From contig OPYK01000004.1 in NCBI GenBank assembly GCA_900343135.1, positions 1-64,000 on the forward strand: DNA of 64,000 nucleotides, given 5' to 3'. The stretch is from Atopobium massiliense. Its GTDB lineage: Bacteria; Actinomycetota; Coriobacteriia; Coriobacteriales; Atopobiaceae. The notes beneath the pieces are model-generated. The model was not told the origin of the DNA. It ran no database searches and saw nothing but the letters and a program-made list of their open reading frames with translations. Shown here one piece after another: positions 244 to 51,087 of the stretch; the stretch's first letter is position 1; each line of letters begins with the position of its first letter. The translations under genes and the position numbers were made by a program.

Positions 244-473
244 TTACAAAATCTTTTCATTCATATTAGAAAATTACCCCACTTTGACACGCGTTTTGGC
301 GTCGCTCAAGCGTGCTTCATGTCGCTGCAAAAACGTGCCTTTTGCCTTTGCGCAGGTAGGAGTGTTGTGTCATTTTGGGTCACTTCCCACCATTGCTCAG
401 AAGGGCAATTTTTGGGTTTAAAACGCGTGTCAAAGTGGGGTAATTTTATAATATCGCTCAAATTTTTTTGTAA
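244..473 (+). repeat. 230-bp dispersed inverted-repeat element, copy 1
   Basis: This is one of four copies of a short non-coding element (others near 18050, 39089 and 50859). It starts TTACAAAA and ends TTTTTGTAA. Inside each end is a long inverted repeat with the shared core TACCCCACTTTGACACGCGT, giving terminal inverted repeats of roughly 50 bp. The middle holds a conserved block around GCTCAGAAGGGCAATTTTTG. No open frame is plausible. It looks like a MITE or a palindromic intergenic repeat. The rest of the 101-601 gap shows nothing I can name. Confidence 0.85.
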
Positions 474-601
474 GAGGTGCGCTGGTTTTAGTTACAGGCA
501 TTAAATCACAGCTAAATGCAGTAGCTACCTCGCCACGCCAATCACTACGCGATGCACACGTTGCTTATTTGCGTGCACCACGCATGCCGACGCGCTATGT
601 T

Positions 602-1315
602 CTACCTGCGTGTAAGGCGATTTTTCATGCGCCGTGCGCCTGCACGAACATGAGGTGTGAAATCTACGTTGTTGGGTGTTACCAAATTAAAGTGCAGCGA
701 AATTCTTCTCAATATAACAACAGTTACAACACATAAGGTAGCTGCAATTGGTCGGTTTATGTAGAGCACAAACACGCTTACGTACGACACCACCGAGCCC
801 GCGATGGCGCAAATGGCGTAATAGTTGCTGCTTTTGAAGATGCGCGGTGTGTCGTGCGTGCACACGTCGCGAATCATGCCGCCGCCAACCGCTGTGAGCG
901 TGCCCATAAGCACGCACGCCCAGGGGCTTAGCATAAAGCTCATGGCTTTATCGGTGCCCGCCGCGGCGAAAAGTCCAATGGAAATGATATCCACCCACTC
1001 TACGCAGCGCGGATGTCGGGTTAGCGCGCTTGGAAACATAAACGCACAAAGGGCGGTTATAACGGTTGAGGGGATAGCAAAGGTTGAATCGAGTGCATAA
1101 ACACCGCCGCGCTGCATGATGGTGTCGCGGATGAGGCCGCCACCAAGGCCGCCCATCACCGCAAGTGCCATAAATCCCACCAGGTCGAGCTTTTTTTGCT
1201 GCGCGACCAGCACGCCCGAGATGGCGCCCACGATAACCGACGCAAGGTCGAGCCATAGTGGCAGGGTAAGTGCGGATGTGTCGGGTCCGTAGGCAGAGAA
1301 GAAACCTGTTGGCAT
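602..1315 (-). CDS. TRIC/UPF0126 family membrane protein (glycine-rich cation channel family)
   Basis: A 237-residue, very hydrophobic protein with about seven membrane segments. It matches the UPF0126 (TRIC channel, YicG/YadS) family, which is built from two similar halves. Each half carries a glycine-rich helix break followed by Arg-Asp: GGLGGGLIRD near residue 57 and VGGGMIRD near residue 143, which is the family hallmark. Family members form trimeric channels for monovalent cations in the cytoplasmic membrane; some have been linked to glycine. The start is the ATG at 1315, preceded by GAAAGG seven bases upstream. The C-terminus is basic and cytoplasmic by the positive-inside rule. It stands alone, reading away from the serine tRNAs. 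Confidence 0.85.
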   Translation of the reverse strand: MPTGFFSAYGPDTSALTLPLWLDLASVIVGAISGVLVAQQKKLDLVGFMALAVMGGLGGGLIRDTIMQRGGVYALDSTFAIPSTVITALCAFMFPSALTRHPRCVEWVDIISIGLFAAAGTDKAMSFMLSPWACVLMGTLTAVGGGMIRDVCTHDTPRIFKSSNYYAICAIAGSVVSYVSVFVLYINRPIAATLCVVTVVILRRISLHFNLVTPNNVDFTPHVRAGARRMKNRLTRR

Positions 1316-1549
1316 GAGTTGGCCTTTCGTGGAGTTACGTGTATGCGGGTTATTATGCTGAGAATATCATGGATTATTCTAGCGTATATGTGTACAAAGC
1401 TCGAAAAATACGCTATACTAACGTACGCGCAAAACCGCGCCAACACACGCGCACCAGCTGTAAGTAGCTCCAAGCGGCTGCAGTCAGTTGTAACCAGCGT
1501 GAGTTGTGGCGTGAATGTGCCTCGCGCAATGCGCGTGCGACTATGTTGT

Positions 1550-1640
1550 GGAGAGTTGTCCGAGTGGCTGAAGGAGCACGATTGGAAATCGTGTATACGC
1601 CTAAAGCGTATCCCGGGTTCAAATCCCGGACTCTCCGCCA
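1550..1640 (+). tRNA. tRNA-Ser (anticodon GGA)
   Basis: The acceptor strand GGAGAGT pairs with ACTCTCC, followed by GCCA, so the CCA end is encoded. The anticodon stem-loop CACGA-TTGGAAA-TCGTG gives anticodon GGA. A long variable arm (CGCCTAAAGCG) marks a class II tRNA, and the T loop GGTTCAAATCC is normal. At 91 nt it has the usual serine tRNA length. Confidence 0.97.
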
Positions 1641-1680
1641 TTACATCTGGCGGCAGGATTCCTGCGCGGCGATGTGCCCG

Positions 1681-1770
1681 GGAGGGGTGGCAGAGTGGTC
1701 GAATGCGGCGGTCTCGAAAACCGTTTACCCCGTTAGGGGTACGAGGGTTCGAATCCCTCCTCCTCCGCCA
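1681..1770 (+). tRNA. tRNA-Ser (anticodon CGA)
   Basis: The acceptor GGAGGGG faces CCTCCTCC in the 3' part and ends in GCCA, so CCA is encoded. The anticodon arm GCGGT-CTCGAAA-ACCG gives anticodon CGA. The variable arm TACCCCGTTAGGGGTA forms a clear hairpin, typical of serine tRNA. It lies 40 bp behind tRNA-Ser(GGA) on the same strand and is probably co-transcribed with it. Confidence 0.97.
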
Positions 1771-2076
1771 TATTTTTTCTTATTAAATACCCTGTTTTAC
1801 CTGCATATTTACACATCGAAACCTTTAATTTTATTAAAAATATGCTAAACAACCACAAATATTAAGCGTAGAGGCGTACATATCGAAAAAGGCACCCAAA
1901 GCAATAAAGACACTCACGGCGCATAAACTTCAACACAAAAGCAAACAAAAGGTAAACAAAAGCACATACAAGCAACTAACAGCACACTACAAGCTGTACA
2001 ATAGTAGGCATGCACACAATAACTGCAGCTACTCCCTTGCATACGGGTTGAGCTCGCCTAAAAAAAGGAGTTGCAT
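1771..2076. other. Intergenic region after the tRNA pair
   Basis: A T-run directly behind the CCA end (TATTTTTTCTT) probably ends tRNA transcription. The rest is A-rich with no credible open frame. A strong ribosome binding site AAAAGGAG at 2063-2070 belongs to the gene starting at 2077. Confidence 0.5.
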
Positions 2077-3063
2077 ATGAGTACACATCAAGAAATGTTT
2101 CACACCGCGTGGAATTCTGTGTTTCGCAGAGACACGCAGGTTTGGAAAACACTGCTTTTACTTGCGCTTATCGGGCTTATTCCCATTGTGGGCGAAATCG
2201 TTATTTTGGGTTTTATAGCCGAGTGGGCATGCTCGCTTGCATGGGGTCAAATCACCGCCTTCGCGCGACCCATTAAATTTGTGCACCACCTTAAGCTTGG
2301 CTTTAGGGTTGCCGTGCTCTACCTGCTGTTTACCATTGCGTGGATGCTTTTTTCTACCTATGTGTTGTCGTTTTTTAATGACATCCCCTTTTTTAACATC
2401 ATCTCCTACGTGCTGGCGTCGGTGGTAAGTTCAATCTTCACTCTGTGCATCCTGCGCGCCACCATTTACCAAAACATTTCAGCAGCGTGGAATTTTGTTT
2501 TTATAAAAGATATGATTACGCGCGAAAACAACGAATTTCCGCTGTATCTGGTTACTCGTTTTTTGGTTGAACTTATTGGCTGCATCGTTGTTGCCGCTGT
2601 TGCCCTGCTGATGATGCTTCCCGGGTTTGGCGCGGTTGCAGAGGTAGTTACCCTTTACTTGAGCGCAGCGTCACACGGCGGACAGCATATTGCAACCGCG
2701 CTTATTTCGGGCGGGATATTTTCGCTGCTAGGCAAGCTGCTTGTGGCGCTTATCATTACCGCGTATGTGGTGTTAATTTTTGCCAACGCGGTGCAAGCTT
2801 TGTCGATGGGCGTAGCTGCCGTGTGGATGAGTCAATTTAATGTAAGTACCTGGGGAAATAAAAACGCGTCGCTTCCAGACGACGTTGCCTCATACAACGC
2901 GCTTTCAAATTATGCAGCTACTGCACCTGCGCCTGAGGGTGCACCTGCTGCTGGGGCTGCACCTACTGCTGGGGCTGCGCATGAACCTACAGCTGTACCA
3001 GCACCTGCGCCTGAGGCCGCTCAACCAAAAGACACCGCATCTGAGCCACCCGCGCAGCAATAA
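2077..3063 (+). CDS. DUF4013-like multi-pass membrane protein with Ala/Pro-rich tail
   Basis: A 328-residue protein. The opening, with a Trp-rich amphipathic start followed by a hydrophobic stretch around LIGLIPIVGEIV, resembles the DUF4013 family of membrane proteins of unknown function. Four or five further hydrophobic segments run to about residue 255. The last 60 residues are Ala/Pro/Glu-rich with repeated GAAPTAGAA-type units, probably a disordered cytoplasmic or surface tail. ATG 2077 is chosen over the in-frame TTG at 2071 because AAGGAG ends at 2070. The gene appears monocistronic and a modest terminator follows. The family assignment rests on pattern recognition only. Confidence 0.65.
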   Translation: MSTHQEMFHTAWNSVFRRDTQVWKTLLLLALIGLIPIVGEIVILGFIAEWACSLAWGQITAFARPIKFVHHLKLGFRVAVLYLLFTIAWMLFSTYVLSFFNDIPFFNIISYVLASVVSSIFTLCILRATIYQNISAAWNFVFIKDMITRENNEFPLYLVTRFLVELIGCIVVAAVALLMMLPGFGAVAEVVTLYLSAASHGGQHIATALISGGIFSLLGKLLVALIITAYVVLIFANAVQALSMGVAAVWMSQFNVSTWGNKNASLPDDVASYNALSNYAATAPAPEGAPAAGAAPTAGAAHEPTAVPAPAPEAAQPKDTASEPPAQQ

Positions 3064-3488
3064 CGGTGCACCTACGCAGCATCAATATTGTTATACACAC
3101 AACACGTATGTAACCACTGCTTACGATGTAGGTGGTGGTTTTTTGTGCCGCGCGCCAATGTAACTGCGCCAGTGTAACTGCGTTATGTGTGCACGTTGTG
3201 GAATGTGATAACGCGCCGCGAACATGGTGCGCGTTATGCCTGCGTAAACTGTCTTGCGTATCTGCTACACTAACGCCAGATTAGGTTCGCAATGTGTGAG
3301 GGCATGTGAGGTGATGGCAGGTTAAGCAAACGCAAACCAAACGCAGGGCAAATGCAAGGCGTCACATGGCTGATGCTAGATGGCTGAGCAGCAGCTCAAC
3401 ATATGCTTTTTTAGTGGATACATCTCGCACGAAAAACGACTGAAAATTTCGTGCACTGATGTGTTACAGTTAAATACTGTATTTTCCT
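3064..3488. other. Spacer between DUF4013 gene and rpsF operon
   Basis: After the terminator near 3112 there is a short imperfect tandem repeat of TGTAACTGCG (period about 14) near 3159-3183, then about 300 bases without a recognisable gene. The promoter of the rpsF operon must lie in the right-hand part, but no hexamer pair is convincing. Confidence 0.4.
3112..3144 (+). terminator. Rho-independent terminator, moderate
   Basis: AACCAC (3112-3117) pairs with GTGGTT (3135-3140), followed by a short T-run. It lies 50 bp after the stop of the DUF4013-like gene. The stem is short, so this is less certain than the other terminators. Confidence 0.55.
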
Positions 3489-3518
3489 GCTTCGAGTGCT
3501 ACCTTCACAGCTCGAAGC
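3489..3518 (+). promoter_or_regulatory. Hairpin in rpsF 5' UTR, candidate S6:S18 autoregulatory leader
   Basis: A perfect 8-bp inverted repeat, GCTTCGAG and CTCGAAGC, encloses a 14-nt loop and is followed directly by CG, so the 3' strand reads GAAGCCG. Known S6:S18 leader RNAs in rpsF operons use a stem with an unpaired CCG. The position 26 nt upstream of the rpsF start fits, but the match to that motif is only partial. Confidence 0.4.
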
Positions 3519-3543
3519 CGCTAGTCCAGAGGAGGTGACAGTA

Positions 3544-3837
3544 TTGAAGGCATATGAATTGTTGTATTTTGTAAGCCCGTCAGCTACCGATGAGGTACGC
3601 GCTGCTGTAGCAAAGCGTATTGACGACACTATTACCGAACAGAGTGGTGTTGTAGATTCCGTAGAAGACTGGGGTAAGCGTAAACTCGCGTATGAGATTA
3701 ATAAGCTTACCGAAGGCGACTATACCCTTATCAATTTCCACGCAGACCCTGCACACATTGCAGAACTTGATCGTGTACTTCGTATTAACGATACGGTAGT
3801 ACGCCATATGATCGTGCGTCGTCCCGATAAAGATTAG
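3544..3837 (+). CDS. rpsF: 30S ribosomal protein S6 (bS6)
   Basis: A 97-residue protein starting MKAYELLYFVSPSATDE, a standard bS6 opening, followed by the conserved DWGKRKLAYEI stretch and the RHMIVRRPDKD C-terminus. bS6 binds 16S rRNA together with bS18 on the small-subunit platform. The start is the TTG at 3544: GGAGGTGA at 3531-3538 sits five bases upstream and the length then matches the family. It is the first gene of rpsF-ssb-rpsR-rplI. A longer frame upstream runs through the leader hairpin and is not the real N-terminus. Confidence 0.95.
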   Translation: MKAYELLYFVSPSATDEVRAAVAKRIDDTITEQSGVVDSVEDWGKRKLAYEINKLTEGDYTLINFHADPAHIAELDRVLRINDTVVRHMIVRRPDKD

Positions 3838-3894
3838 GACAATTGAGGGTGGTGCTATGCATCACCGGGTAAGACCTATTGGAAGGTGAGTATT

Positions 3895-4485
3895 GTGAGT
3901 ATCAATCGAGTTGCAATTTCAGGTAATTTAACACGTGATCCTGAGCTCCGCGTTACTACGTCGGGCTCTCAGGTGATGACTTTTTGTCTTGCGGTAAACG
4001 ACCGTCGTCGCAATCCGCAGTCGGGCGAATGGGAAGATGTTCCCAATTATGTGGACTGTGTCTTATTTGGTGCTCGTGCTGAATCACTTAGCAAAATCCT
4101 CACCAAGGGTCAAAGGGTTGTATTAGATGGTAGACTTCGCTGGAGCCAATGGGAGCGCGATGGGCAAAAGCGCAGCAAGCTCGAAGTTATAGCAGAAACG
4201 CTCGACTTTGTATCGCCGCGCAGAACGCAAGCTCCAACAGCGCAAGGCGGCTATGGCTCGTATGCAGGTAGTGCACCTGCTGCTGCAGACTACGGCAACC
4301 AAAGTTATGGTGGGCCGCAGCAAGCACCATATGCTGCACAAAGCGCCGCGTATGCTCCTGCGCCCGCAGCACCAGCGCCTGCATCTGCAGCGCCAATGGA
4401 CGATGGCTACTCTGCTGCCGCTCCTATTGATGCAGCTATGCAGCCACCTGCGGCCGATGCGTATTCGGATGACATTCCGTTTTAA
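3895..4485 (+). CDS. ssb: Single-stranded DNA-binding protein
   Basis: A 196-residue SSB. The N-terminal OB fold (about residues 1-110) begins [18 protein letters not shown] and contains the conserved [13 protein letters not shown] block. A long flexible Ala/Pro/Gln/Gly/Tyr-rich linker follows, and the protein ends in the acidic tip DDIPF that recruits replication and repair proteins. It coats single-stranded DNA during replication and recombination. The GTG at 3895 is preferred over the GTG at 3886 because GGAAGG ends at 3886, eight bases upstream. It lies between rpsF and rpsR, the usual bacterial arrangement. Confidence 0.96.
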
Positions 4486-4532
4486 GCGCATGTGTTTACC
4501 ATGTACTGTTCGTCTTAAGAAAGGTATCAATC

Positions 4533-4805
4533 ATGGCTAGAAAAAAGCATGTTGAGCAGCGTCAACCGCTGCGCAAATATAGCCAACTTGATAAAGCCGA
4601 GCTTGATAATGTCGATTACAAAGACACTCAGCTTTTACGCAAGTTTATGACCGACCGTGGCAAAATTAAACCACGTCGTGTTACTGGCATTTGTACGCAA
4701 CACCAGCACAACGTTGCTATGGCTATCAAGCGCGCTCGTGAAATGGCGCTATTGCCATACACCGTAACCGTAGTTTCCACGCGTGGGAGCCGCAATAAGG
4801 GCTAA
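4533..4805 (+). CDS. rpsR: 30S ribosomal protein S18 (bS18)
   Basis: A 90-residue bS18 with the conserved signature region [18 protein letters not shown] and [24 protein letters not shown], which binds 16S rRNA as a heterodimer with bS6. A basic N-terminal extension is normal for the family. ATG 4533 has AAGAAAGG upstream. It lies 47 bp after ssb and 61 bp before rplI, so all four genes are probably co-transcribed. Confidence 0.96.
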
Positions 4806-4866
4806 TGCACGGCATCGTGTATACGTCCTGCGCTCCACAACGCACTACTGAGTTAAAGGAGTTCCT

Positions 4867-5418
4867 ATGAAAGTCATCCTTCTGGGTGAGCTTAGGGGCA
4901 AAGGTGGAGAAGGCGATATTGTAGACGTAGCTCAGGGATATGCAGAAAACTGCCTATTCCCAAACAAAATCGCTCAGCCTGCCACCCCTGGCAATATTAA
5001 ACAACTTAAGGAGCGTGCTCACAATATTCAACAGCGTGAAGAAAAACGCTTGTCGGATGCACGTGACATGAAGGCAAAACTCGATGATAAACAGGTATTT
5101 ATCGAGGCAAAGGTTGGAGAGAACAACCAGCTGTTTGGTTCAATTACCGCTGCGCAAATTGCAAAAGCTATTAATGAGCAGCTTTCGGTAGAAATTGATC
5201 GCAAACGCATTTCTCGCGGTGCTACCATTAAAACTGCTGGTACGCATGGTGTTGAAATTAACCTGTATCGCGACATTAACGCTCGTGTTTCGGTAACCGT
5301 TGGTGCCAGCATGAGTGAAATGAAGTCGTCTGAAGAAGCTGCAGAAGTTGAAGTAGCTGAAGCAGACGCTAACGAAGCAGCAGATGCTGAAAAGCAGGAT
5401 GCTTCTGAAAATGAGTAA
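4867..5418 (+). CDS. rplI: 50S ribosomal protein L9 (bL9) with acidic C-terminal extension
   Basis: A 183-residue bL9. The N-terminal 23S rRNA-binding domain opens MKVILLGELRGKGGEGDIVDV and includes YAENCLFPNKIA. A central helix and the C-terminal domain follow, with LFGSITAAQIAKAI and the ATIKTAGTHGVEI region. Typical bL9 ends near residue 148-150. Here a further 30 or so residues, almost all Glu, Ala, Asp and Ser, are appended. The start has AAAGGAGTTCCT directly upstream. A strong terminator lies 140 bp downstream, so this is the last gene of the operon. Confidence 0.95.
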   Translation: MKVILLGELRGKGGEGDIVDVAQGYAENCLFPNKIAQPATPGNIKQLKERAHNIQQREEKRLSDARDMKAKLDDKQVFIEAKVGENNQLFGSITAAQIAKAINEQLSVEIDRKRISRGATIKTAGTHGVEINLYRDINARVSVTVGASMSEMKSSEEAAEVEVAEADANEAADAEKQDASENE

Positions 5419-5558
5419 TACGTGCGCAAAGATAGGGTATAATACTCTTGTCTTTTTCGCACGGTAGCACGACGCACTAGTATTGTTCGATCGTGCTAAA
5501 TGCGCGGTACTATCGCGCAAGTTGGGTATGTATAGTTTTATAGTATAGTGGTATGCAA

Positions 5559-5586
5559 ACAGGTGCCTTTTGGGGCACCTGTTTTG
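5559..5586 (+). terminator. Rho-independent terminator of the rpsF operon
   Basis: A perfect 10-bp stem, AACAGGTGCC (5559-5568) with GGCACCTGTT (5574-5583), has a five-base loop and runs into T residues. It lies 140 bp after the rplI stop. Confidence 0.92.
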
Positions 5587-6127
5587 TGTTATGGGGCTGT
5601 TGTTGTGCGCTGAAAGTGCTGTGCGCGTTAGGTATCGCAGCTGTCGCGTGTTACGCACCGTGCTAGTCGCATGTGCCCACCCTGCGGCTGCCTTCGTTCC
5701 ACACGCACGCTGCGGCTGGCAATGTTGAAAACGCGCCTTTCTTTACCACTTTTCGTCATTCAAAACGCCTACGCTGACCACGCGCTATACATGAGTGTAA
5801 ACCTTTTACTGGTGTTAAACAAAAAGCATTACATAAAACTGCATACAAGACAAAGAAACACCAGGTAGCAGATATAAAAAGTGAATAATACGAGTAAAAC
5901 ATAAAAGTGCAGGTGGGCGCCTTGCGGGGGCTACACAGTTTATACACAACCAGTGGCGCGTTCAGAAATTGTTGAAAATGTTGATAAGTCGCTCATTTCA
6001 CGGTAAATGGGAGCAACTTTTCAACATTGGTGTGTTAAAAACAATTCAATAAAAAAGCCCACCGTTTGCAAGCGTGCCGCCTGCAAAAGCGTTTACACTA
6101 AGTTGTACATAGATGAAAGGTGCACCC
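5587..6127. other. Long spacer upstream of dnaB with one DnaA-box match
   Basis: About 540 bp without a credible gene. TTATACACA at 5940-5948 matches the DnaA-box consensus exactly. Nearby, GTTGAAAATGTTG and CAACTTTTCAACATTG form a loose inverted repeat around 5970-6025. A single box without dnaA or dnaN next to it does not make an origin. Confidence 0.35.
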
Positions 6128-7546
6128 GTGTCAGATTCACTTGCTACATCAACAGCGTCGCTGCTTAATTTTCCGCCCGTAAACCCCGACGGCACAACGC
6201 AGGGTAAAGCCTTGCAGCTGCCGCAAGACATTGATGCGGAAAAGTCGCTGCTTGCGGCGATGATTTTAAGCGATGACATTTTGCAAAACTGTATAACCGC
6301 ACTTAAAGAGGACGATTTTTACCTTACTCGCCACAAGATTATCTTTAGGGCAATCCTTGCGCTGGCAGATAAGGGGCAAACCGTCGACCCTGTTTCGCTT
6401 GCCGACTGGCTTAAAACTACAAACGAGCTCGATCGCATTGGCGGCTCGGCCACCTTAGTTGAGCTGAGCGAAAACAGTTTTTCGCTGGTTTCGTGGGAGC
6501 ACCACATCGAAATTTTGCACCGCGATGCGTGCTTGCGTTCGCTTATTTTGGCGTCGTTTAACATTCAAAAGCTGGCGTTTGATGCGCCCGAGGACACCAA
6601 AGAGGTTATCGACTCGGCGGAAAACATGCTGCTTGAGGTTACTAACAAAGAGGTGGCGAGCAATTATTCACCCCTATCGGAAGTAATGAGCTCGCTTTAC
6701 ACCGACCTTACCGAAATGCAGGCGTCGGGCACGCCGCAGGGCATTAACACCGATTACCCAACGGTTGATCGCTGGCTACAAGGCCTGCGACCTGGGCAAA
6801 TGGTGGTTGTTGGCGCGCGCCCCGGTGTTGGTAAAACGTCGTTTGCGCTTAACCTGGCGGTTAACTTTGCAAACAATGGGGCAAGCGTTGCGCTCTTTTC
6901 GCTTGAGATGAGTAAGGTTGAAATTGCACAGCGTTTGCTTTCGGCGCAGGCAAAAATTAACCTGTCGGCTATTCGTGGTGGTTCAATTCAAAGCGATCAG
7001 TGGCCGGCAATTTTGCAAGCAACAAACGACTTGTCCCAGCTCGACATTATGATAGACGACACGCCGGGCACAACGGTAACCGAAATTCGCGCAAAGGCAC
7101 GCCGCATGCTCAACAAAAAAGAGCGCGGCATTGTGATTATTGACTATTTGCAGTTGCTTTCGCCGCCACAAGGGCGTTTTCGTGCGGATTCGCGTGCCAC
7201 GGAAGTGTCTGAAATGTCGCGCGGCATTAAGATTATGGCGAAAAACCTTGAAGTTCCGGTGGTTGCGCTCTCGCAGCTTAACCGTCAGGTAACGGGACGT
7301 AGTTCGCAGCGTCCGCAGCTTTCTGACCTGCGTGAATCGGGTGCTATCGAGCAGGACGCCGACATCGTTATTTTGCTCGATCGTTCAATGACCGAAGAAG
7401 AAGCACAGCGCCCGCAGCGTCCGGAGATGGGGCAAACCGATCTCATTATTGCAAAAAACCGCTCGGGTCCGTTGGGCACCGTGTCGCTTGCATTTTTGCC
7501 TGGTACAACCAAGTTTCTTGAGGTTGATATGAACAACGTGGAGTAG
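6128..7546 (+). CDS. dnaB: Replicative DNA helicase DnaB
   Basis: A 472-residue hexameric helicase that unwinds DNA at the fork. The N-terminal DnaB domain (about residues 30-140) is followed by the RecA-like C-terminal ATPase with Walker A GARPGVGKTSF near residue 230, Walker B IVIIDYLQLL near residue 335 and the SQLNR and RESGAIEQDAD motifs. There is no intein. The GTG at 6128 is preferred because GAAAGG at 6115-6120 lies seven bases upstream; an in-frame ATG at 6113 would add five residues. The rpsF-ssb-rpsR-rplI-dnaB order is common in Gram-positive bacteria. Confidence 0.95.
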   Translation: MSDSLATSTASLLNFPPVNPDGTTQGKALQLPQDIDAEKSLLAAMILSDDILQNCITALKEDDFYLTRHKIIFRAILALADKGQTVDPVSLADWLKTTNELDRIGGSATLVELSENSFSLVSWEHHIEILHRDACLRSLILASFNIQKLAFDAPEDTKEVIDSAENMLLEVTNKEVASNYSPLSEVMSSLYTDLTEMQASGTPQGINTDYPTVDRWLQGLRPGQMVVVGARPGVGKTSFALNLAVNFANNGASVALFSLEMSKVEIAQRLLSAQAKINLSAIRGGSIQSDQWPAILQATNDLSQLDIMIDDTPGTTVTEIRAKARRMLNKKERGIVIIDYLQLLSPPQGRFRADSRATEVSEMSRGIKIMAKNLEVPVVALSQLNRQVTGRSSQRPQLSDLRESGAIEQDADIVILLDRSMTEEEAQRPQRPEMGQTDLIIAKNRSGPLGTVSLAFLPGTTKFLEVDMNNVE

Positions 7547-7730
7547 GGTGCGCCCGCTGCACACGCAACCCCGCTGCACACGTAATCCTGCCTGTTGCAC
7601 GCCCGCTGCGTACCGTGTGCGCGCGCCCACCCCGCGTCTGCGGAGAGTTTGTTGCTTTCTTGTTTGTGTGCTTCGAGCAGCGCGTATGAGTGTAATACTT
7701 AAAGAGTTGTATTGCGTAAGGAGGAACACT

Positions 7731-9008: not shown

Positions 9009-9187
9009 TTCGCGCTTTATGGTATCGTAATACGCAGAGGTAAAGCGCGCAGGTGCACTTGTTACAACCGCGCGCCGTCTTATCCAGCGTGGTTTTGCAT
9101 CGCGCCCCGCGCCGTCCATGCGCTATCCGCGCTGCCACCCGTGCGTTACACGCTTTTGTTACACGCTTTGTGAAAGGAAGGGATACT

Positions 9188-10141: not shown

Positions 10142-10195
10142 CCTGCACGTTTATACCGAGTAGCTGGTAGTTGAGCTTGTAGCGAAGGGGCTTGT

Positions 10196-11182: not shown

Positions 11183-11190
11183 AGGTTGGC

Positions 11191-17796: not shown

Positions 17797-17827
17797 CGCG
17801 CGCGGGTTATCCTGCGCGCGTTTTTTT
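17797..17827 (+). terminator. Strong Rho-independent terminator
   Basis: A 10-bp GC stem (CGCGCGCGGG with CCTGCGCGCG, one G-T pair) has a TTAT loop followed by seven T residues. It ends the M20 peptidase transcript. The following stretch to 18049 shows no gene. Confidence 0.92.
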
Positions 17828-18049
17828 GTGCAATCTTGCTCAATATTTTTGCCGAAAAATTAAAACGCACCCAATTGCACCATTCCTAGCGTTTTGTCAC
17901 TTTTTTATTATTTTGACAATACGCTAGTAATACCATACATGTGTCTGCGGGCAAATAATACGGCGGCGATATCCGGTTTATTTCGGTTTACTGTGTTGGT
18001 GGGGGTGTGTATGGTTTTAGCATATGCTTACCTGCGTTCGCCTGTTTTA

Positions 18050-18278
18050 TTACAAAACTTTTTGCTTCATATTAGAAAATTACCCCACTTTGACACGCGT
18101 TTCAGCGTCACTCAGGCGCGCTTCGGCTCGCCACAAAAACGTGCGTTTTCCAAATGCCCAGGTATGAGCGTTGTGGCATTTTTGGCCTGTACCCAACGTT
18201 GCTCAGAATGGCAATTTTTGGGTTCAAAACGCGTGTCAAAGTGGGGTAATTTTCTAATATCGCTCAATAGTTTTTGTT
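18050..18278 (+). repeat. 230-bp dispersed inverted-repeat element, copy 2
   Basis: Same family and orientation as the copy at 244. It opens TTACAAAACTTTTTGCTTCAT and ends near TTTTTGT. Both ends carry the TACCCCACTTTGACACGCGT core in inverted orientation, and the interior carries GCTCAGAATGGCAATTTTTG. It lies 28 bp beyond the stop of the - strand MFS gene. Confidence 0.85.
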
Positions 18279-18306
18279 GGGAGGTTGGTGACGGAGGGTC
18301 ATGCAG

Positions 18307-37376: not shown

Positions 37377-37377
37377 G

Positions 37378-37429: not shown

Positions 37430-37470
37430 CCCACCGTCTGGTCGCGTCGCGCACCGGCGGTGGGTTTTTT
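37430..37470 (+). terminator. Rho-independent terminator of the permease/ucpA operon
   Basis: CCCACCG (37430-37436) pairs with CGGTGGG (37458-37464), followed by six T residues. The GC-rich loop may add inner pairs. Confidence 0.85.
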
Positions 37471-37490
37471 CTCATATTGCTCGTACGTTT

Positions 37491-37568
37491 TTGTAATCAA
37501 TTACCCAAACTTGCAAAAAACAAAAGTTCTTGTAATCAATTACCCAAACTTGCAAAAAACAAAAGTTT
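37491..37568. repeat. 39-bp tandem duplication upstream of an AAA_14/DUF4143 gene
   Basis: A 39-bp unit occurs at 37491-37529 and again at 37530-37568 with one difference. Each unit holds the inverted pair GTAAT-CA-ATTAC and an A-rich tail. It ends 58 bp before the ATPase start, so it may hold duplicated promoter or operator sites. Confidence 0.93.
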
Positions 37569-39088: not shown

Positions 39089-39318
39089 TTACAAAAAATT
39101 TTGCTTCATATTAGAAAATTACCCCACTTTGACACGCGTTTCGGGGTCGATTAGACGCGCTTCAAGCCGCCGCAAAAACTTGTGTTTTTCAAATGCCCTG
39201 GTAGGAGCGTTGTGACATTCTTGACCACCTCGCGCCATTGCTCAGAATGGCAATTTTTGGGCTCAAAACGCGTGTCAAAGTGGGGTAATTTTCTAATATC
39301 GCTCGTACGTTTTTGTAA
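39089..39318 (+). repeat. 230-bp dispersed inverted-repeat element, copy 3
   Basis: It has the same family features: TTACAAAAAATTTTGCTTCA at the left, TTTTTGTAA at the right, inverted TACCCCACTTTGACACGCGT cores and GCTCAGAATGGCAATTTTTG inside. It lies between two convergent AAA_14/DUF4143 genes. The flank at 39319-39438 contains a duplicated GCGCTGCCGTGCGG block (period about 37) and nothing else. Confidence 0.87.
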
Positions 39319-41535: not shown

Positions 41536-41545
41536 TGTGGCCTCT

Positions 41546-41878: not shown

Positions 41879-41916
41879 AGTTTTCAACATGGGCACCTTA
41901 CGTGCGCAAACGTGCT
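41879..41916. repeat. 38-bp direct repeat, right copy
   Basis: Identical to 40984-41021 and in the same orientation. It ends about 20 bp before the promoter of the first ECF transporter operon. Confidence 0.93.
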
Positions 41917-41935
41917 AAAAATTGTATAAAAATTG

Positions 41936-41965
41936 TTGTTTGGGCTTTTTCTGAACGAGTATAAT
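41936..41965 (+). promoter_or_regulatory. Candidate promoter of the first ECF operon
   Basis: TTGTTT (41936-41941) and TATAAT (41960-41965) are separated by 18 bp, about 47 bp upstream of the S-component start. The -10 element is a perfect match and the -35 element is weaker. Confidence 0.6.
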
Positions 41966-42012
41966 AGTTCTCAATGTAAATTAGTACTTCGTGTGGAGAG
42001 GAAGCCTTCGCC

Positions 42013-42609: not shown

Positions 42610-42623
42610 CCTGTTTGAGCAGC

Positions 42624-44326: not shown

Positions 44327-45135
44327 TGACTCACTCCATTAGTTTGCACAATGTAACGTTTTCGCATATGCAGACGGCAACTATATTCAATAATCTGAAT
44401 ATTTCCTTTACGCCTGGTACCTGCGCAATTGTTGGCCAAAACGGCGCCGGAAAAACAACGCTCCTTAAGCTGCTGCGCGGACTTCTTACTCCTCAAGCAG
44501 GCTGCGTTTGCTTAAACGGGCAGGATATTGCGGGCGTTTCAGTTGCTGACTGCGCGGGCGACATTGGCTTTGTGTTTCAAAATCCCGATGACCAAATATT
44601 TGAATCAACGGTACTACGCGAGGTTATGTTTGGACTGTTGCAAACGGGTAAGAGTGAAAAAGACGCGAGGGCGGCTGCACAAGAAAGCCTTGAGCTTGTG
44701 GGACTTTTAAACAAAAGCCAGGTAAACCCCTATGATTTAAGTCCAAGCGAGCGAAAAATGGTTGCAATTGCATCTATTGTGGCCATGGATACACAGGTTG
44801 TGCTTTTGGACGAGCCGACTATGGCGCAAGACGCAGCCAGCAAGGAGCGCCTTGAAGCCATCATTGACCACCTTGTTTCTCAACAAAAAATTGTGATTGC
44901 TGTGCTGCATGATATGGATTTTGTAGCGCGTGCGTTTGACCGCGTGATTGTGCTGGTACATGGCAGTGTTGCGTTTGATGGAGCGGCTCGCGAATTGTTT
45001 TTGCATAATGATTTGCTCAAGCAAGCAAAACTCGACAAGCCCGACGTGGTAAAGCTGGGCGAGGCTATGGGCTTTGACGCGCCAACGCGTTCCGTTGATG
45101 AGTTTGTGCGCGCTTATCGACATTCCACTCGCTAG
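44323..45135 (+). CDS. ecfA: ECF transporter ATPase A2 with atypical signature motif
   Basis: A 270-residue ABC ATPase, partner of the protein at 43415. Walker A is GQNGAGKTT, the Q loop is FVFQNPDDQIFEST and Walker B is VVLLDEPTMAQD. The signature motif reads LSPSERKM in place of LSGGQ. In an ABC dimer the signature of one subunit completes the site of the other, so one of the two ATP sites may be non-hydrolytic. The start overlaps the previous gene by four bases. The stop lies inside the first unit of a 15-bp duplication. Confidence 0.9.
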   Translation: MMTHSISLHNVTFSHMQTATIFNNLNISFTPGTCAIVGQNGAGKTTLLKLLRGLLTPQAGCVCLNGQDIAGVSVADCAGDIGFVFQNPDDQIFESTVLREVMFGLLQTGKSEKDARAAAQESLELVGLLNKSQVNPYDLSPSERKMVAIASIVAMDTQVVLLDEPTMAQDAASKERLEAIIDHLVSQQKIVIAVLHDMDFVARAFDRVIVLVHGSVAFDGAARELFLHNDLLKQAKLDKPDVVKLGEAMGFDAPTRSVDEFVRAYRHSTR

Positions 45136-45160
45136 CAATCTTCCTGCTAGCAATCTTCCT
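45131..45160. repeat. 15-bp tandem duplication across a stop codon
   Basis: GCTAGCAATCTTCCT occurs at 45131-45145 and 45146-45160; the TAG of unit one is the stop of the ATPase gene. Confidence 0.95.
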
Positions 45161-45171
45161 GCTTTCGCCAA

Positions 45172-45179
45172 CCCCCCCC
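45172..45179 (+). repeat. C8 homopolymer tract upstream of a D,D-carboxypeptidase gene
   Basis: Eight consecutive C residues lie about 100 bp before the start at 45277. The position could place it in the promoter or 5' UTR, where length changes can alter expression. Confidence 0.85.
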
Positions 45180-45276
45180 GCGCACCACCGTAAGGAACGT
45201 GCGGCATCATGAGGTATTGCACGCCGTACGTGAGGTTATGTACAATATCCTAAACACGGTAAACGGGAGGCAAACT

Positions 45277-46224
45277 ATGAACAGGCTCCATAAAAACAGG
45301 CGAAATGTGCTGCTCATTGTGGGTTTTATAGTTTTGGCAGTGGTTGCTGTCGCGTTCGGTCTTTTTAAAAACAGGATTTTACAATCAAGCCTATTTATGA
45401 GTGTTAACGACAAAATCGATTATATCTTTAATACTAAAGACCTTAAAATCCCAGATGACGCGCTTGCATTTTCGGTATATGACATGAATGCGAATAACTA
45501 CTTGTTTTATGAGGGCGCAGGTCAGCTGCCAACCGTTGCAAGCCTGTCCAAACTTTTTGCCATAGATTACGCACTTAGTAAGGTTAAGCTTGATGACGTT
45601 TTTGAAGCCAACGAAGAAACGCTTAAACTTGTACCTGCGGGTTCATCGATGGCTAATCTAACGCGTGGAACGTATACTGCAAAGCAAATTTTTCAGGCGA
45701 TGCTTGTTCCATCCGGAAACGACGCGGCGTATGTTATGGCATATAATATCGGCAAATTAGACTTAGGCGCCGGTCACAGTGCAAAAGAATATACCAATCA
45801 TTTTGTAAAATCACTGAGTACATATTTAGCACGTGAGGGCTATAGCAAAACGCATCTCTTTGATCCAAGTGGATTTTCAATGCAGGCTGATACCAATCTG
45901 GATGACATTAATAGGGTAACTCTTAAACTGCTTAATTACGATTTTGTCAAAGAGTGCATGGGAGAGAGCTCGTTTACCATTACAACAAAACAGGGCAATT
46001 TTACCTGGAAAAATACCAATGAATTTTTAGATAAAGAGTCGCTGTTTTACAATAGTCACATCAAAGGCGTAAAAACGGGAACGATGGGGTCTTCTTATAA
46101 TATTATTGCTTTGTACGAGAACGATGGTAGAAGATATTTAATTACCTGTTTAGCTGCGCACTCAAACAAAGACAGATACCAGGCTGTTCAGGCGGCCATA
46201 CATACGATTATCGAAAAACAATAA
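45277..46224 (+). CDS. D-alanyl-D-alanine carboxypeptidase (S11-type)
   Basis: A 315-residue protein with one N-terminal membrane anchor (residues 9-30) and an extracytoplasmic penicillin-binding domain. All three active-site motifs are present: SLSK in VASLSKLF, SGN in PSGNDAAYVM and KTG in GVKTGTMG. It would remove the terminal D-Ala of peptidoglycan stem peptides. ATG 45277 follows GGGAGG and is preferred over a longer frame starting at 45199. It lies between the first ECF operon and an AAA_14/DUF4143 gene. A small repeat of GGAACTGCT units follows the stop. Confidence 0.9.
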   Translation: MNRLHKNRRNVLLIVGFIVLAVVAVAFGLFKNRILQSSLFMSVNDKIDYIFNTKDLKIPDDALAFSVYDMNANNYLFYEGAGQLPTVASLSKLFAIDYALSKVKLDDVFEANEETLKLVPAGSSMANLTRGTYTAKQIFQAMLVPSGNDAAYVMAYNIGKLDLGAGHSAKEYTNHFVKSLSTYLAREGYSKTHLFDPSGFSMQADTNLDDINRVTLKLLNYDFVKECMGESSFTITTKQGNFTWKNTNEFLDKESLFYNSHIKGVKTGTMGSSYNIIALYENDGRRYLITCLAAHSNKDRYQAVQAAIHTIIEKQ

Positions 46225-46318
46225 AGTTTTGAACTGCAGGGGATCGGAACTGCTGGGAACTGCTCACTGGGTTAGCATAATCAGGCTGTTAGCGGCGATG
46301 CAACATCACAAAAAAATA

Positions 46319-46366
46319 TATAATTATGTGATAAAACTCACGAAATTACGTATAATTATGTGATAA
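46319..46366. repeat. Direct repeat TATAATTATGTGATAA, two copies 32 bp apart
   Basis: The 16-bp unit is identical at 46319-46334 and 46351-46366, a spacing of about three helical turns. Each contains TATAAT. The pair lies about 100 bp before the third AAA_14/DUF4143 gene and may be a regulator site or duplicated promoter. Confidence 0.85.
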
Positions 46367-46466
46367 GCGCAGGTACTACGTGCGCATGGGGATGATAGCT
46401 ACAGACAGCAACGAACGTTGCGTTGACACGTGCATTGAATGCTGCAATGAATGAAAGGTGAGCACC

Positions 46467-47798
46467 ATGGAACGATGCATTATGAGCAAGCTTTTGGCCT
46501 GGAAAAACTCGCCATACCGCAAGCCGTTGATAGTAAAGGGTGTGCGTCAAGTTGGTAAAACTTGGGCGCTTAAAGAATTTGGCAAACGCTATTACAACAA
46601 CACCGCTTATTTTAATTTCGACGAAAACAAAGAGTACAAGCAATTTTTTGAGACCACCAAAAATGTGGAGCGTATCCTGCAAAACCTTATGCTGGCAAGT
46701 GGACAGAAAATTGAAGCGGAAACTACGCTCATTATATTTGATGAAGTTCAAGATTGCCCTGAAGTTTTAAACGCAATGAAATATTTTTGCGAGGACGCTC
46801 CGCACTATCATGTTGCATGCGCGGGTTCTCTGCTGGGCATAACGCTTGCAAAACCTTCCTCATTTCCGGTTGGAAAAGTTAATTTTATGCAGATATATCC
46901 AATGACGTTTAAAGAGTTTTTGCTGGCTAATGGTGATGAAAACTTAGTGACTTTTTTGGATCAAATGGATACGATAGAGCCTGTTCCGGACGCATTTTTT
47001 AATCCACTTTGTGAAAAACTCAAAATGTACTATGTTACGGGTGGTATGCCGGAATCGGTTTTGATGTGGAGTCAGGCGCGCGACGTCAACGCAATGCAAC
47101 AATCGTTGTTCGAAATTATAACGGCATATGAGCGAGATTTTGCAAAACATCCGAGCGTGAGTGAATTTCCAAAAATTTCAATGATTTGGAATTCTATACC
47201 GTCTCAGTTGGCTCGCGAAAATAAAAAATTCCTGTATAACGTTGTGAAAAAAGGGGCGCGCGCACGCGAATACGAAGACGCGCTACAATGGCTTGTGGCC
47301 GCGCAACTAGTGTTGAAAATTTATCGAAACACCCGTCCCAACCTGCCTATTTCTGCGTATGATGACGTGTCTGCATTTAAAATTTACTTGGCAGATGTGG
47401 GTTTACTGCGCCGGTTGGCACAACTTGCACCAACTGCATTTGCAGAAGGCAATCGGCTGTTTACGGAGTTTAAGGGCGCATTAACGGAAAATTATGTCTT
47501 ACAGGCACTTCTTCCTCAATTTGAGGTAACGCCCCGATACTGGTCTCAAACAAATCCGCCGTACGAGGTTGATTTTTTGATTCAGCGTGAAAATGATATG
47601 TTCCCAATTGAAGTTAAGTCTGAGGCAAATACCACCAGCAAAAGTTTGAAAAAATTCAAGGAATTGTTTCCTAATCAGACAAAACTACGCATTCGGTTTT
47701 CGTTAAACAACCTAAAACTCGACAACGACATGTTGAATATTCCGCTGTTTATGGCCGATTATGCCGATAAACTCATTGGAATTGCATTGCACGAGTAG
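46467..47798 (+). CDS. ATP-binding protein, AAA_14/DUF4143 type (3 of 3)
   Basis: A 443-residue P-loop ATPase. Walker A is VRQVGKTWAL near residue 28, Walker B is TLIIFDEVQDCPE near residue 92, and CAGSLLGITLAK follows. The C-terminal DUF4143 domain contains YEVDFLIQRENDMFPIEVKSE, which keeps the Asp and the Glu-x-Lys of a PD-(D/E)xK nuclease fold; the two paralogues lack the Lys. It is more distant from those two than they are from each other. ATG 46467 with GAAAGG upstream is preferred over GTG 46458. Base composition is more AT-rich than that of the ECF genes around it. Confidence 0.85.
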   Translation: MERCIMSKLLAWKNSPYRKPLIVKGVRQVGKTWALKEFGKRYYNNTAYFNFDENKEYKQFFETTKNVERILQNLMLASGQKIEAETTLIIFDEVQDCPEVLNAMKYFCEDAPHYHVACAGSLLGITLAKPSSFPVGKVNFMQIYPMTFKEFLLANGDENLVTFLDQMDTIEPVPDAFFNPLCEKLKMYYVTGGMPESVLMWSQARDVNAMQQSLFEIITAYERDFAKHPSVSEFPKISMIWNSIPSQLARENKKFLYNVVKKGARAREYEDALQWLVAAQLVLKIYRNTRPNLPISAYDDVSAFKIYLADVGLLRRLAQLAPTAFAEGNRLFTEFKGALTENYVLQALLPQFEVTPRYWSQTNPPYEVDFLIQRENDMFPIEVKSEANTTSKSLKKFKELFPNQTKLRIRFSLNNLKLDNDMLNIPLFMADYADKLIGIALHE

Positions 47799-47816
47799 TT
47801 TTTGCAAGGCGTGCAG

Positions 47817-47874
47817 CGTGTGCGGCGAGCAAGCGTGCAGGCGGGCGTGAGCCGTGTGCGGCGAGCAAGCGTGC
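47817..47874. repeat. 22-bp direct repeat, period 36
   Basis: CGTGTGCGGCGAGCAAGCGTGC is present at 47817-47838 and 47853-47874, just behind the third ATPase gene; related GTGAGCCG units follow. Confidence 0.9.
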
Positions 47875-48007
47875 GTGAGCCGCGAGCAGCGTGAAAGCCC
47901 TAAAAAAATGCCGAAACGGGCTGGTATTTATCAAAAATTAGTCTACGATTAACTTAAACATGAATTGGTGCCTTTGTATATATGCCTTGCAAAAAGGAGG
48001 AAATTAC

Positions 48008-48592
48008 ATGGAACACGAAAATAAGTTAAACGGGCACGACCTGATGAATATTGGTATTTTTGGGGCAATTTATTTTGTCATTTTGTTTATTGTTGCCATG
48101 CTGGGCATCATACCTATTTTCCTGCCGCTTCTTTCGGTATTTGTGCCAATTATAGGCGGCATTCCCTTTATGCTTTTCTTAACAAAAGTTAAAAAGCCGG
48201 GCATGATTTTTATCATGGGAATTATTATGGGCATTCTTATGATGCTTACCGGCATGGGCATGTGGCCGCTTCTTACGAGCGCTCTTGCTGGTCTTGTTGC
48301 AGAAATCGTGTTTAAAAGTGGCAACTATCGCAGCGCTAACCAGGCAGTTCTTGCGTATGGATGTTTTAGTCTTTGGATTTTTGGCAACTATTTGCCCCTG
48401 TTTCTAAACAGCGCTGAATATTTTGCACAGCGTGCAAGTTTGGGGCAAGCGTATGCAGACGCCGTTTCAAAGCTTATGCCAAATTGGATGTTGTTCGTTC
48501 TGTTTATCGCCTGCTTTATCTGCGGTGTCGTGGGCGGTTTGCTTGGACAAAAAGTGTTGAAAAAGCATTTTGAAAAAGCCGGACTTGTTTAA
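48008..48592 (+). CDS. ECF transporter S component, MptD/Trep_Strep type
   Basis: A 194-residue membrane protein with five or six helices. The opening LMNIGIFGAIYFVI and the strongly hydrophobic GMIFIMGIIMGILMML stretch fit the MptD/Trep_Strep group of S components, whose ligand is not firmly known. ATG 48008 follows AAAGGAGG. Its stop overlaps the start of the T component, and a two-domain ATPase follows, so this is the second complete ECF operon in the window. Confidence 0.85.
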   Translation: MEHENKLNGHDLMNIGIFGAIYFVILFIVAMLGIIPIFLPLLSVFVPIIGGIPFMLFLTKVKKPGMIFIMGIIMGILMMLTGMGMWPLLTSALAGLVAEIVFKSGNYRSANQAVLAYGCFSLWIFGNYLPLFLNSAEYFAQRASLGQAYADAVSKLMPNWMLFVLFIACFICGVVGGLLGQKVLKKHFEKAGLV

Positions 48593-49335
48593 TGGCTTAT
48601 TCATCGCTCGCAGCGCAAAAAAATAAACGCGGTTTTTTAGATCCGCGCGTTAAACTCGCTCTCGTGATACTGTTGGCGTTTTTTGTAATGGGCGGCGTGG
48701 GCGGCGCGCGGTTTACTTATGTTCGCATTGCGTTATCTGTTATCCCGTTTGCATTGTTGCTGGTAGAGCTGCAGTGGCAAAAATTATTGCGCGTATGCGT
48801 GATGGTGATAGTTGGCTACGGCTGTCTTTTAGCCACGCCATATGTACCTGGTGTCTTGCATTTTATAGCATTGATGTGCGGATATGTGTTTACACGGCTG
48901 GTAATAACCGTTGCCATGGGGGAGTATGTTACGGCAACAACATCGGTAAGCGAGTTTATTGCTGCAATGGAAAAAATGCACGTACCGCAAGCAATTATTG
49001 TGCCGATGTCTGTTATGTTTCGCATGGTTCCTACGATTGGCGCGGAGTGGAAGTCCATTTGTCGTGCAATGACTATGCGTGGGCTGCATGTTGGGTCGGC
49101 GGGCATTGAGCCCTTGCTTGAATACCAGCTTATTCCCATGATTAGCTCGAGTGTTCGTATTGGCGAAGAATTATCGGCTGCTGCGTTAACGCGCGGTCTA
49201 GGCGCCCCAGGTAAACGCACCAATATTTGTCAAATTGGCTTTCGTGCACAAGACTGGCTGCTCATGCTTGTTTCTTTGGCAGTTATAATCTTTTGGCTGC
49301 TCACGTGTGTAGCATATGGAGGAGTTGCAGCATGA
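48592..49335 (+). CDS. ecfT: ECF transporter T component
   Basis: A 247-residue membrane protein. The opening DPRVKLALVILLAFFVMG is typical of EcfT. The coupling motifs are CRAMTMRGLH near residue 160 and AAALTRGLGAPGKR near residue 200, matching the Ala-x-x-x-Arg-Gly pattern that contacts the ATPases. Start and stop both overlap the neighbours by one to four bases, so the three genes are likely translated together. Confidence 0.88.
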   Translation: MAYSSLAAQKNKRGFLDPRVKLALVILLAFFVMGGVGGARFTYVRIALSVIPFALLLVELQWQKLLRVCVMVIVGYGCLLATPYVPGVLHFIALMCGYVFTRLVITVAMGEYVTATTSVSEFIAAMEKMHVPQAIIVPMSVMFRMVPTIGAEWKSICRAMTMRGLHVGSAGIEPLLEYQLIPMISSSVRIGEELSAAALTRGLGAPGKRTNICQIGFRAQDWLLMLVSLAVIIFWLLTCVAYGGVAA

Positions 49336-50873
49336 GCGAACGTGGCACGGTTGAATTAAAGCACGTTTATTTTCAATATGGAGCTGCAGCCGCGCAAGCA
49401 GCTAGCACGCAGGATGCAGCTGCGCAAGCAGCTTCCGCAGCGGATCAGTCGCGCGCGGGCGAATTACAGGACATAACCCTTACCATCCAAAAGGGTGAAT
49501 TAGTGTTGATAAGTGGTCCTTCGGGATGTGGTAAAACAACACTGTTACGGCTGATAAACGGGCTTATTCCTCGTTTTTATCAGGGTCGCGTGCGTGGCGA
49601 AATTCGCATAAACGGCACATCTTTTCAACATGGCGAGCTGTATGAATTGGCGCGCGTGGTGGGCACCGTTTTTCAAAATCCAAAATCGCAATTTTATACT
49701 GTTGATACTACGAGTGAGCTTTCGTTTGCGTGCGAAAATCAGGGGCTGCCAGAAAACGATATTTACCAGCGCATTGATGCTGCGGTTGCGGATTTGCATG
49801 TGGAATCGTTGATGGATAGAAATATTTTTCACCTGTCTGATGGTGAAAAGCAGCAAATAGCGTGCGCATCAATTGAGGTTGCAGGTATGCCAATAATTTT
49901 ATTGGATGAGCCGTCAGCCAATTTAGATTACGACGCTACGATTATGCTGAAAAAACTTATTCTGCATTGGAAACGTGCAGGTAAAACAGTTGTTGTTGCC
50001 GAGCATCGGATAGTGTACCTTTGGGACGTTATGGATCGCTTAATTGTAATGGAGCATGGTACCATAGTTAATGAGATTACACGCAACCAAAAAGATGCAC
50101 TTTTAAACACGGATTTACAAAAAATGGGACTGCGTACACGCGTTATGGAATCGCCCATGGAGATTGCGCTGCCATCTGTTTTGCCAGATGACCAGGTAAT
50201 TAAGGTAAATAATTTTGCCTTTGCATATAGGGGAACAACACAGCCAATCGTAACGATTGATTCGCTTGATATTGCACAGGGCGAAATTACTGCAATTGTT
50301 GGAAAAAATGGCGCAGGCAAAACGAGTTTTCTACACTGTTTTTGCGGGCTTGAGCAAAGATGCACAGGTACGGTGGTATATGAAAGCCGTGTTGAAAACA
50401 ATCGCGCGCGAAGAAAACTATGTTTTATGGTGATGCAAAATACAGCAAACCAGCTTTTTACTGAAAGCGTGTTAGACGAGGTGCTTATCAGCCTGCCCAA
50501 ACATACCCAACACAAAGAAAATGCTGCGATGGGTGTGTTGCGCGCACTCGATTTAGAGGCTCTTGCTCAGCGACATCCGCAAAGTCTTTCGGGTGGGCAA
50601 AAACAGCGATTAGCCATTGCGTGCGCAGTTGCGTCGGAAAGAAAGATTTTGCTGCTCGATGAGCCAACGAGCGGGCTGGACTATGCACATATGAACGAAA
50701 TGGCGCACGTGTTAACATCGATCAAGGCAATGGGCATAACTATTATTGTGGTTACGCATGACGCTGAGTTTATACACGCGTGTTGCACGCGCTTGCTGTG
50801 CATTTGTGGGGTTTCGGCGCGCTCGTTGTGTAGTCGGGAAGACGCGCGTCCGTTTGCTTACAAAAAAAGTTGA
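49332..50873 (+). CDS. ECF transporter ATPase, two ABC domains fused; 3' end lies in a dispersed repeat
   Basis: A 513-residue protein with two ABC domains. Domain 1 (about 1-245): Walker A GPSGCGKTT, signature LSDGEKQQ, Walker B IILLDEPSANLDY. Domain 2 (about 280-500): Walker A GKNGAGKTS, signature LSGGQKQR, Walker B ILLLDEPTSGLDY. Such fusions replace separate A1 and A2 subunits. An Ala/Gln/Ser-rich insertion lies near residues 15-40. ATG 49332 overlaps the T-component stop. The last residues, after ARPFA, are encoded within the 230-bp element at 50859, which also supplies the stop, so the original C-terminus was probably replaced. Confidence 0.92.
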   Translation: MSERGTVELKHVYFQYGAAAAQAASTQDAAAQAASAADQSRAGELQDITLTIQKGELVLISGPSGCGKTTLLRLINGLIPRFYQGRVRGEIRINGTSFQHGELYELARVVGTVFQNPKSQFYTVDTTSELSFACENQGLPENDIYQRIDAAVADLHVESLMDRNIFHLSDGEKQQIACASIEVAGMPIILLDEPSANLDYDATIMLKKLILHWKRAGKTVVVAEHRIVYLWDVMDRLIVMEHGTIVNEITRNQKDALLNTDLQKMGLRTRVMESPMEIALPSVLPDDQVIKVNNFAFAYRGTTQPIVTIDSLDIAQGEITAIVGKNGAGKTSFLHCFCGLEQRCTGTVVYESRVENNRARRKLCFMVMQNTANQLFTESVLDEVLISLPKHTQHKENAAMGVLRALDLEALAQRHPQSLSGGQKQRLAIACAVASERKILLLDEPTSGLDYAHMNEMAHVLTSIKAMGITIIVVTHDAEFIHACCTRLLCICGVSARSLCSREDARPFAYKKS

Positions 50874-51087
50874 ACGATATTAGAAAGATACCCCACTTTG
50901 ACACGCGTTTTGAGCCCAAAAATTGCCATTCTGAGCAATGGCGCGAAGTAACCAAAAATGCCGCAACACGCCTACCTTGACAAATGCAAAACGCAACTTT
51001 TTGCGGCGAGCCGAAGCGCGCTTGAGCGCCGCCGAAACGCGTGTCAAAGTGGGGTATTTGTCTAATATGAGTGAAAAAGTTTTGTAA
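50859..51087 (-). repeat. 230-bp dispersed inverted-repeat element, copy 4 (opposite orientation)
   Basis: This has the same ends and inverted cores as the other copies, but the interior GCAATTTTTG block appears as its complement. It starts inside the last codons of the ECF ATPase gene and ends 54 bp before the YhcG-type gene. It also marks the border between sequence typical of the window and the AT-rich segment to the right. Confidence 0.87.

Follow-up and report, generated by a model that had tools for sequence, protein, structure and literature searches.

Near-invariant inverted arms around a drifting interior of constant length in a 230-bp, possibly MITE-like repeat of Atopobium massiliense

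The bacterial interspersed mosaic elements (BIMEs) and repetitive extragenic palindromic (REP) sequences of enterobacteria are intergenic palindromes that occur in more than 100 copies at gene 3' ends and form composites with neighbouring hairpin modules. Bacterial miniature inverted-repeat transposable elements (MITEs) carry TA at both ends, form long stem-loops and generate a 2-bp TA duplication (PMC2229807); one of them, Chunjie, varies in length from 178 to 235 bp, and the direct repeats that flank MITEs fade with age (PMC10969869). The CIR repeats of Caulobacter and Brucella are intergenic inverted repeats carrying conserved DNA-protein signals (PMC2229807). Here we analyse a 230-bp non-coding element that is present four times in a 64,000-nucleotide stretch of Atopobium massiliense DNA (contig OPYK01000004.1, positions 1 to 64,000; hereafter the window) and in 17 full copies, labelled L001-L017, in the 1.55-Mb genome, the assembly of which comprises 16 contigs and is 95.5% complete. 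While most bacterial short repeats decay after insertion, this one has kept its arms and its length even though its interior has drifted far. We give a probability of roughly one half to the reading that it is a MITE-like mobile repeat retained through putative protein binding at its arms.

In element orientation, a copy consists of the outer box TTACAAAA, an 11-nt left spacer, a 34-bp arm (ATATTAGAAAATTACCCCACTTTGACACGCGTTT), a 124-bp interior, the inverted arm, a right spacer and the terminal TTTTGTAA; the right outer box usually matches the left one, and the spacer between box and arm differs between the two sides. An earlier interpretation made from the letters of the window (the sequence-only reading) had described inverted ends of about 50 bp. 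Inverted ends do exist, but each is made up of an 8-bp box, a side-specific 11-nt spacer and the 34-bp arm. The four copies that it had listed are all present, with two ends adjusted to 18279 and 50858, and the family it postulated extends to 13 more copies beyond the window, 9 of the 17 lying on the plus and 8 on the minus strand. The lack of additional copies, which that reading had named as its own refutation, is thus not what the genome shows. The distance from the arm box CCCCACTTTGACACG to its inverse is 164 bp in 17/17 copies, and one copy (C13:33838) carries this box with two mismatches. Being short (<500 bp) and non-coding, the family has the general format of a MITE, and the expected common terminal inverted repeats are found in all 17 copies as outer box plus arms, the right box being degraded in some. 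Within the window, the arms are by far the longest inverted repeats; the next in line are one pair of 25 nt (76% identity) and one of 22 nt (86%). When up to two mismatches were allowed, the arm box was found at 39 genomic sites, 38 of them inside elements, subfamilies included, and one unrelated (a reversed-pattern control gave 5 matches), indicating that the arm has no life outside the elements. A singly scattered signal of the kind known from uptake sequences was rejected, as nearly all occurrences of the arm box are paired.

Counted against the consensus of the 17 aligned full copies, substitutions affect 3/578 and 11/578 positions of the two arms, 14/1156 together, compared with 373/2108 in the interior (17.7% divergence), which bears out the earlier claim that the interior differs more than the ends. 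The spacers take an intermediate place with 29/187 and 30/187. Of the outer boxes, which had been proposed to be common to all copies, the left one is kept (1/136), whereas the right one is changed at 21/136 positions and reads TTTTTGTTG at the end of window copy 2. Variation in the interior is spread evenly across codon positions (119, 131 and 122 for the three), so that a coding element was rejected and the statement that the copies encode nothing was upheld. The tree of the interiors has a star shape: its end branches have a median length of 0.1 and total about 2.1 changes per site (summed by hand), and 1/14 inner branches is well supported. At this rate, about 143 changes would be expected over the 68 arm positions on end branches alone, where 14 are observed in all. 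There is a weak sign that interiors are mosaics produced by exchange among copies (23/1000 permutations).

The alignment of the 17 copies is gapless before column 225, and the interior contains no gap at all. Flanks common to several loci served as a control for indels, with gap columns tallied manually from the coordinates: all seven flank alignments that span 170 columns or more and fall below 85% identity contain 1 to 18 gap columns each, while shorter or closer ones are often gapless. The comparison of gapped flanks with gapless interiors suggests that not only the sequence of the arms but also the length of the element appears to be held. None of the libraries searched contains the family. 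As a MITE-like short interspersed repeat it belongs to a known kind; what is unusual is that frozen arms, a drifting interior and a locked length come together. Since arms and length remained unchanged in spite of the interior drift, something must act on the resident copies. We propose that a dedicated DNA-binding protein, either the transposase that mobilises the element or a host protein that has adopted its sites, would bind both arms at once, in which case both the sequence of the arms and their spacing would be under selection and the copies would be retained. This makes testable the question of whether we are looking at a mobile element in continuous turnover or at a repeat taken over by its host, with the arm as an obvious bait for the putative binding protein.

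The same conservation is what the main rival explanation draws on. It holds that the element is host-owned and presently immobile: like a BIME, it would sit at gene 3' ends and serve an architectural protein or a topoisomerase as a docking site, with both arms, set at a fixed distance, united in a single nucleoprotein complex between convergent genes. Frozen arms and a 124-bp interior locked in length fit this explanation, as does a central block conserved across subfamilies. Its further support comes from genomic context. All four window copies lie in convergent gaps (P = 0.0004, or 0.0016 when weighted by intergenic length), as judged against 47 hand-picked window gene pairs, 8 of them convergent. 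For the genome, context was read from open frames and Pfam names, which amount to rough gene calls: eight copies were read as convergent (L001, L002, L005, L007 and L011-L014) and six as tandem (L004, L006, L009, L010, L015 and L016), and the orientation was not assignable for three (L003, L008 and L017, the last beside a tRNA-Ser gene). By our own reading, the 3' end of a gene or tRNA faces the element in 16/17 copies, the exception being L008. On the other side, 9/17 copies lie outside any gap that can be called convergent, 17 copies are few, remnants (see below) show that copies can be lost, and a family confined to this one among 140 genomes would be odd for a basic chromosome function. 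We regard the host-docking explanation as the main rival, although a rather unlikely one. For a MITE-like repeat, the pile-up at gene 3' ends would reflect an insertion preference or the loss of harmful insertions elsewhere.

A bolder version goes further. The element might be a domesticated two-site docking platform, in which a dedicated DNA-binding protein grips both 34-bp arms at a fixed spacing of 14 turns between convergent genes and selection on the resident copies keeps arms and length while the letters between them drift; and sister genera may have elements of the same design but other sequence, as a fast-diverging pair of protein and site that organises gene 3' ends. Taken jointly, we consider these two conjectures unlikely, and more so than simple host docking.

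How the family dispersed can be read in part from its flanks. Six copies (L001, L002, L005, L006, L009 and L015) have no long flank in common with another copy; the remaining ones form groups with common flanks, L008/L016 and L013/L016 matching on both sides. This pattern indicates that insertion-like dispersal and local duplication were both at work, and it suggests that the family was dispersed by transposition with the help of a trans-acting protein, and in part by riding along in larger local duplications. The family also has diverged members. Two copies of a second subfamily, at C9:37421 and C7:250719, follow the same plan with a 165-bp span and retain 20 and 18 of the 23 letters of the central block GCGTTTTCCATTTGCCCAGGTAG, a remnant of this subfamily is located at C13:12751, and C10:33595 is one more distant relative. 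Four remnants of 40-42 bp (L107, L111, L117 and L121) join a left TTTTT to a right CTAATAT. Because TTTTC stands at both corresponding positions of a full copy, deletion between these short repeats is the simplest origin, probably a recurrent one at a single junction; copies that lose retention by protein binding would collapse in this way at the base of the palindrome. L107 matches the full copy L012 in its left flank (82.7% over 202 columns), as does L121 the full copy L011 in its right flank (89.9% over 99 columns), and both matches reach the element or stop one to two bases short of it. Within this one strain, the comparison of filled and empty sites thus yields paralogous loci with 40-42-bp remnants in place of 230 bp.

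The interpretation of the family as MITEs, one of those offered by the sequence-only reading, is supported in part: sharp ends in unrelated flanks, the occurrence in both orientations and the restriction to one lineage favour it, but several observations weigh against it. Part of the spread is duplication rather than transposition, as the common flanks of several copies show. The two loci that join both L016 flanks (C8:70177 and C8:121318) keep a short, different spacer and so provide no clean empty site, and the deletion origin of the remnants is deduced from their junction, not seen. Passive MITE copies do not show such frozen arms and such a locked length, and indel-free interiors and long end branches are likewise unusual among MITEs. 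Outside the ends there is no target duplication beyond chance (301/500 shuffles reach the observed score), as had been noted before, although a 2-bp TA duplication within the conserved ends, which have TA on both sides, would be indistinguishable. Finally, no transposase with matching ends was found in a search that covered PF00872 and PF01797 and no other families.

The transposases that were found do not fill this gap. Above the cut-off, PF00872 has a single match, a fragment of 68 aa next to copy L015: this N-terminal piece of an IS256-type transposase at C10:9956-10105 (L045) is fused to the right end of L015 at a common GAGCGATAT. An IS256-type origin of the family was rejected, since the fragment starts where the right outer box of L015 is missing and shares GAGCGATAT with the element, which looks like a chance fusion by deletion. 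PF01797, the Y1 transposase family of REP/RAYT and IS200/IS605-type systems, has no match in the 95.5%-complete assembly. The window itself holds an insertion sequence in two copies that are 99.4% identical; its transposase scores 23.1 bits with MULE and 19 bits with Transposase_mut, both below the cut-offs, and inverted ends of 25 bp, GAGCTATAGGACAAAAAGTGTGTA, can be seen in a third copy at C8:20667. The ends of the insertion sequence are unrelated to those of the element (235/1000 shuffles score as well), and it was dismissed as the mobiliser.

It was equally conceivable that the element acts in transcripts, as a bidirectional terminator or a structured 3'-end RNA, such that transcripts from either side form a long hairpin and are ended or cut. 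Position at 3' ends, T-runs near both element ends and a terminator-like site in copy 3, in a stretch that is not conserved in all copies, are in line with this, and the very long hairpin foreseen by the sequence-only reading is real as a prediction: RNAalifold draws a strong arm hairpin in all 17 copies, with small helices in the interior. In the arm helix, however, just one pair is changed on both sides (2/17 copies), a covariation score reached by 63/500 shuffles, and four copies have an unpaired T-T at 31/200. The strongest mutual-information pairs of the interior are mostly non-complementary, and no run of variable pairs exceeds a length of 4, as counted without a null for run length. Given that neither the arms covary beyond shuffles nor the interior contains a consistent covarying helix, the notion of a folded RNA element is not supported. 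The paired terminators considered earlier fare no better as a main role, with arms 124 nt apart and at least six copies (L008, L009, L011, L012, L013 and L016, judged by eye) already behind a separate hairpin with a T-run. A terminator would, moreover, not need a fixed interior length, and the only Rfam matches in the window are the 5S rRNA and two tRNAs. Altogether, we deem a transcript-level role improbable. Still far less credible is an inverton, in which the arms would be recombination sites that flip the 124-bp interior: the idea is suggested by the long, perfect inverted repeats and the short interior of fixed size between them, yet the interior is reversed relative to the side-specific outer spacers in 0/17 copies, and an inversion switch was accordingly rejected.

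A separate hairpin family of 84 nt accompanies DUF5648 surface-protein genes and other loci outside the window. Double changes affect 20/32 of its pairs in six sequences, while the loop letters GAAGTGCGC, GCGAAACTTC and AGCTC are kept. A model built from these six finds 17 places in 13/49 sources, with no hit in the window or among 17 sister stretches. Locus L013 has three of these hairpins nested loop within loop, as if one had inserted into another. The family has no Rfam match at the gathering level and one chance-like match at an E-value limit of 1.

Beyond this genome, the 230-bp element was not found. No match appeared in the 139 other genomes of a family-wide set (35 genera and 140 genomes including this one, searched with two exact gapped patterns), in 59 relatives searched by alignment, in a species-wide contig collection (one exact gapped pattern, own genome left out) or in the plasmids and phages searched; a 17-base piece of the arm has two exact matches in viral contigs. 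No element of the family turned up in 341 kb of four sister genomes, covered by 18 stretches that include one of 1.2 kb without readable bases; the inverted-repeat script used on them was not a complete finder, as it overlooked the 22-nt, 86% pair of the window. A literature search on repeats in this bacterial family returned nothing on point.

Other repeats were noted in these relatives. Two genomes of a sister genus, G014 and G071, contain a different, palindromic repeat of 127 bp, with 17 copies in each; 15/15 compared loci are orthologous and 95-99.9% identical, and three other genomes of the genus have no match. A further genome, G018, has genome-specific intergenic clusters of a short motif in both orientations, the motif being CTATAGTCCCCG in the first cluster and CTTGCGGTGTACG in the second.

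The features located in this work are collected in the table. In copy 4, the reading frame of the neighbouring ABC-transporter ATPase ends 16 bases inside the element.

Table 1. Positions of element copies, fragments and other features; plain numbers refer to the window, and an L label precedes positions elsewhere.
Feature	Positions	Strand	Arms	Interior	Neighbours or remarks
Copy 1	244-473	+	263-296, 421-454	297-420	5S rRNA gene end (+), glycine-transporter gene (-)
Copy 2	18050-18279	+	18069-18102, 18227-18260		M20 peptidase gene (+), major facilitator superfamily transporter gene (-); right outer box altered
Copy 3	39089-39318	+	39108-39141, 39266-39299		two convergent AAA_14/DUF4143 genes
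Copy 4	50858-51087	-	50877-50910, 51035-51068		ABC-transporter ATPase gene (+), YhcG-type nuclease gene (-)
Probable subfamily-2 half-element	17822-17861	+			right behind hairpin with T-run; has GCTCAATATTTTTGCCGAAAAATT of both subfamily-2 right ends
Element right-end fragment	37467-37496	+			behind hairpin with T-run; nearest to copy 3 right end
Terminator-like site	39234-39251				inside copy 3
Insertion sequence, two copies	54769-56104; 58864-60199
Reading frame of 2372 aa	24566-31684				FIVAR domains; probably a large surface protein
84-nt hairpins	L008 1298-1381; L011 1298-1381; L013 1315-1398, 1842-2206; L016; L043; L074
127-bp repeat, example	L142 7115-7243
Motif clusters of G018	L146 12353-12545; L148 164-317

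Compared with the bacterial MITEs (Correia/NEMIS, ERIC, RUP and Chunjie), the element is alike in being shorter than 500 bp, non-coding and intergenic, with terminal inverted repeats, TA at both ends, a long stem-loop and no transposase of its own (PMC10969869, PMC2229807). It differs in that its 34-bp arms are internal to an 8-bp outer box, in that no duplication and, in the families searched, no same-ended transposase were found, and in that near-invariant arms enclose an interior that diverged without indels. With the CIR repeats it shares the format of an intergenic inverted-repeat element, whereas the two separate inverted-repeat arms and the GANTC methylation site described for CIR are not seen in it. 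The 127-bp repeat of the sister genus resembles it in copy number per genome, in its long inverted ends and, in the two copies looked at, in its intergenic position, but is unrelated in sequence, nearly identical between copies and built from several copies of one short motif. To BIMEs and REP sequences, finally, the element is similar as an intergenic palindrome at gene 3' ends with hairpin modules nearby, and it is set apart from them as a fixed 230-bp unit of 17 copies in a genome in which no Y1 (REP-associated) transposase was found.

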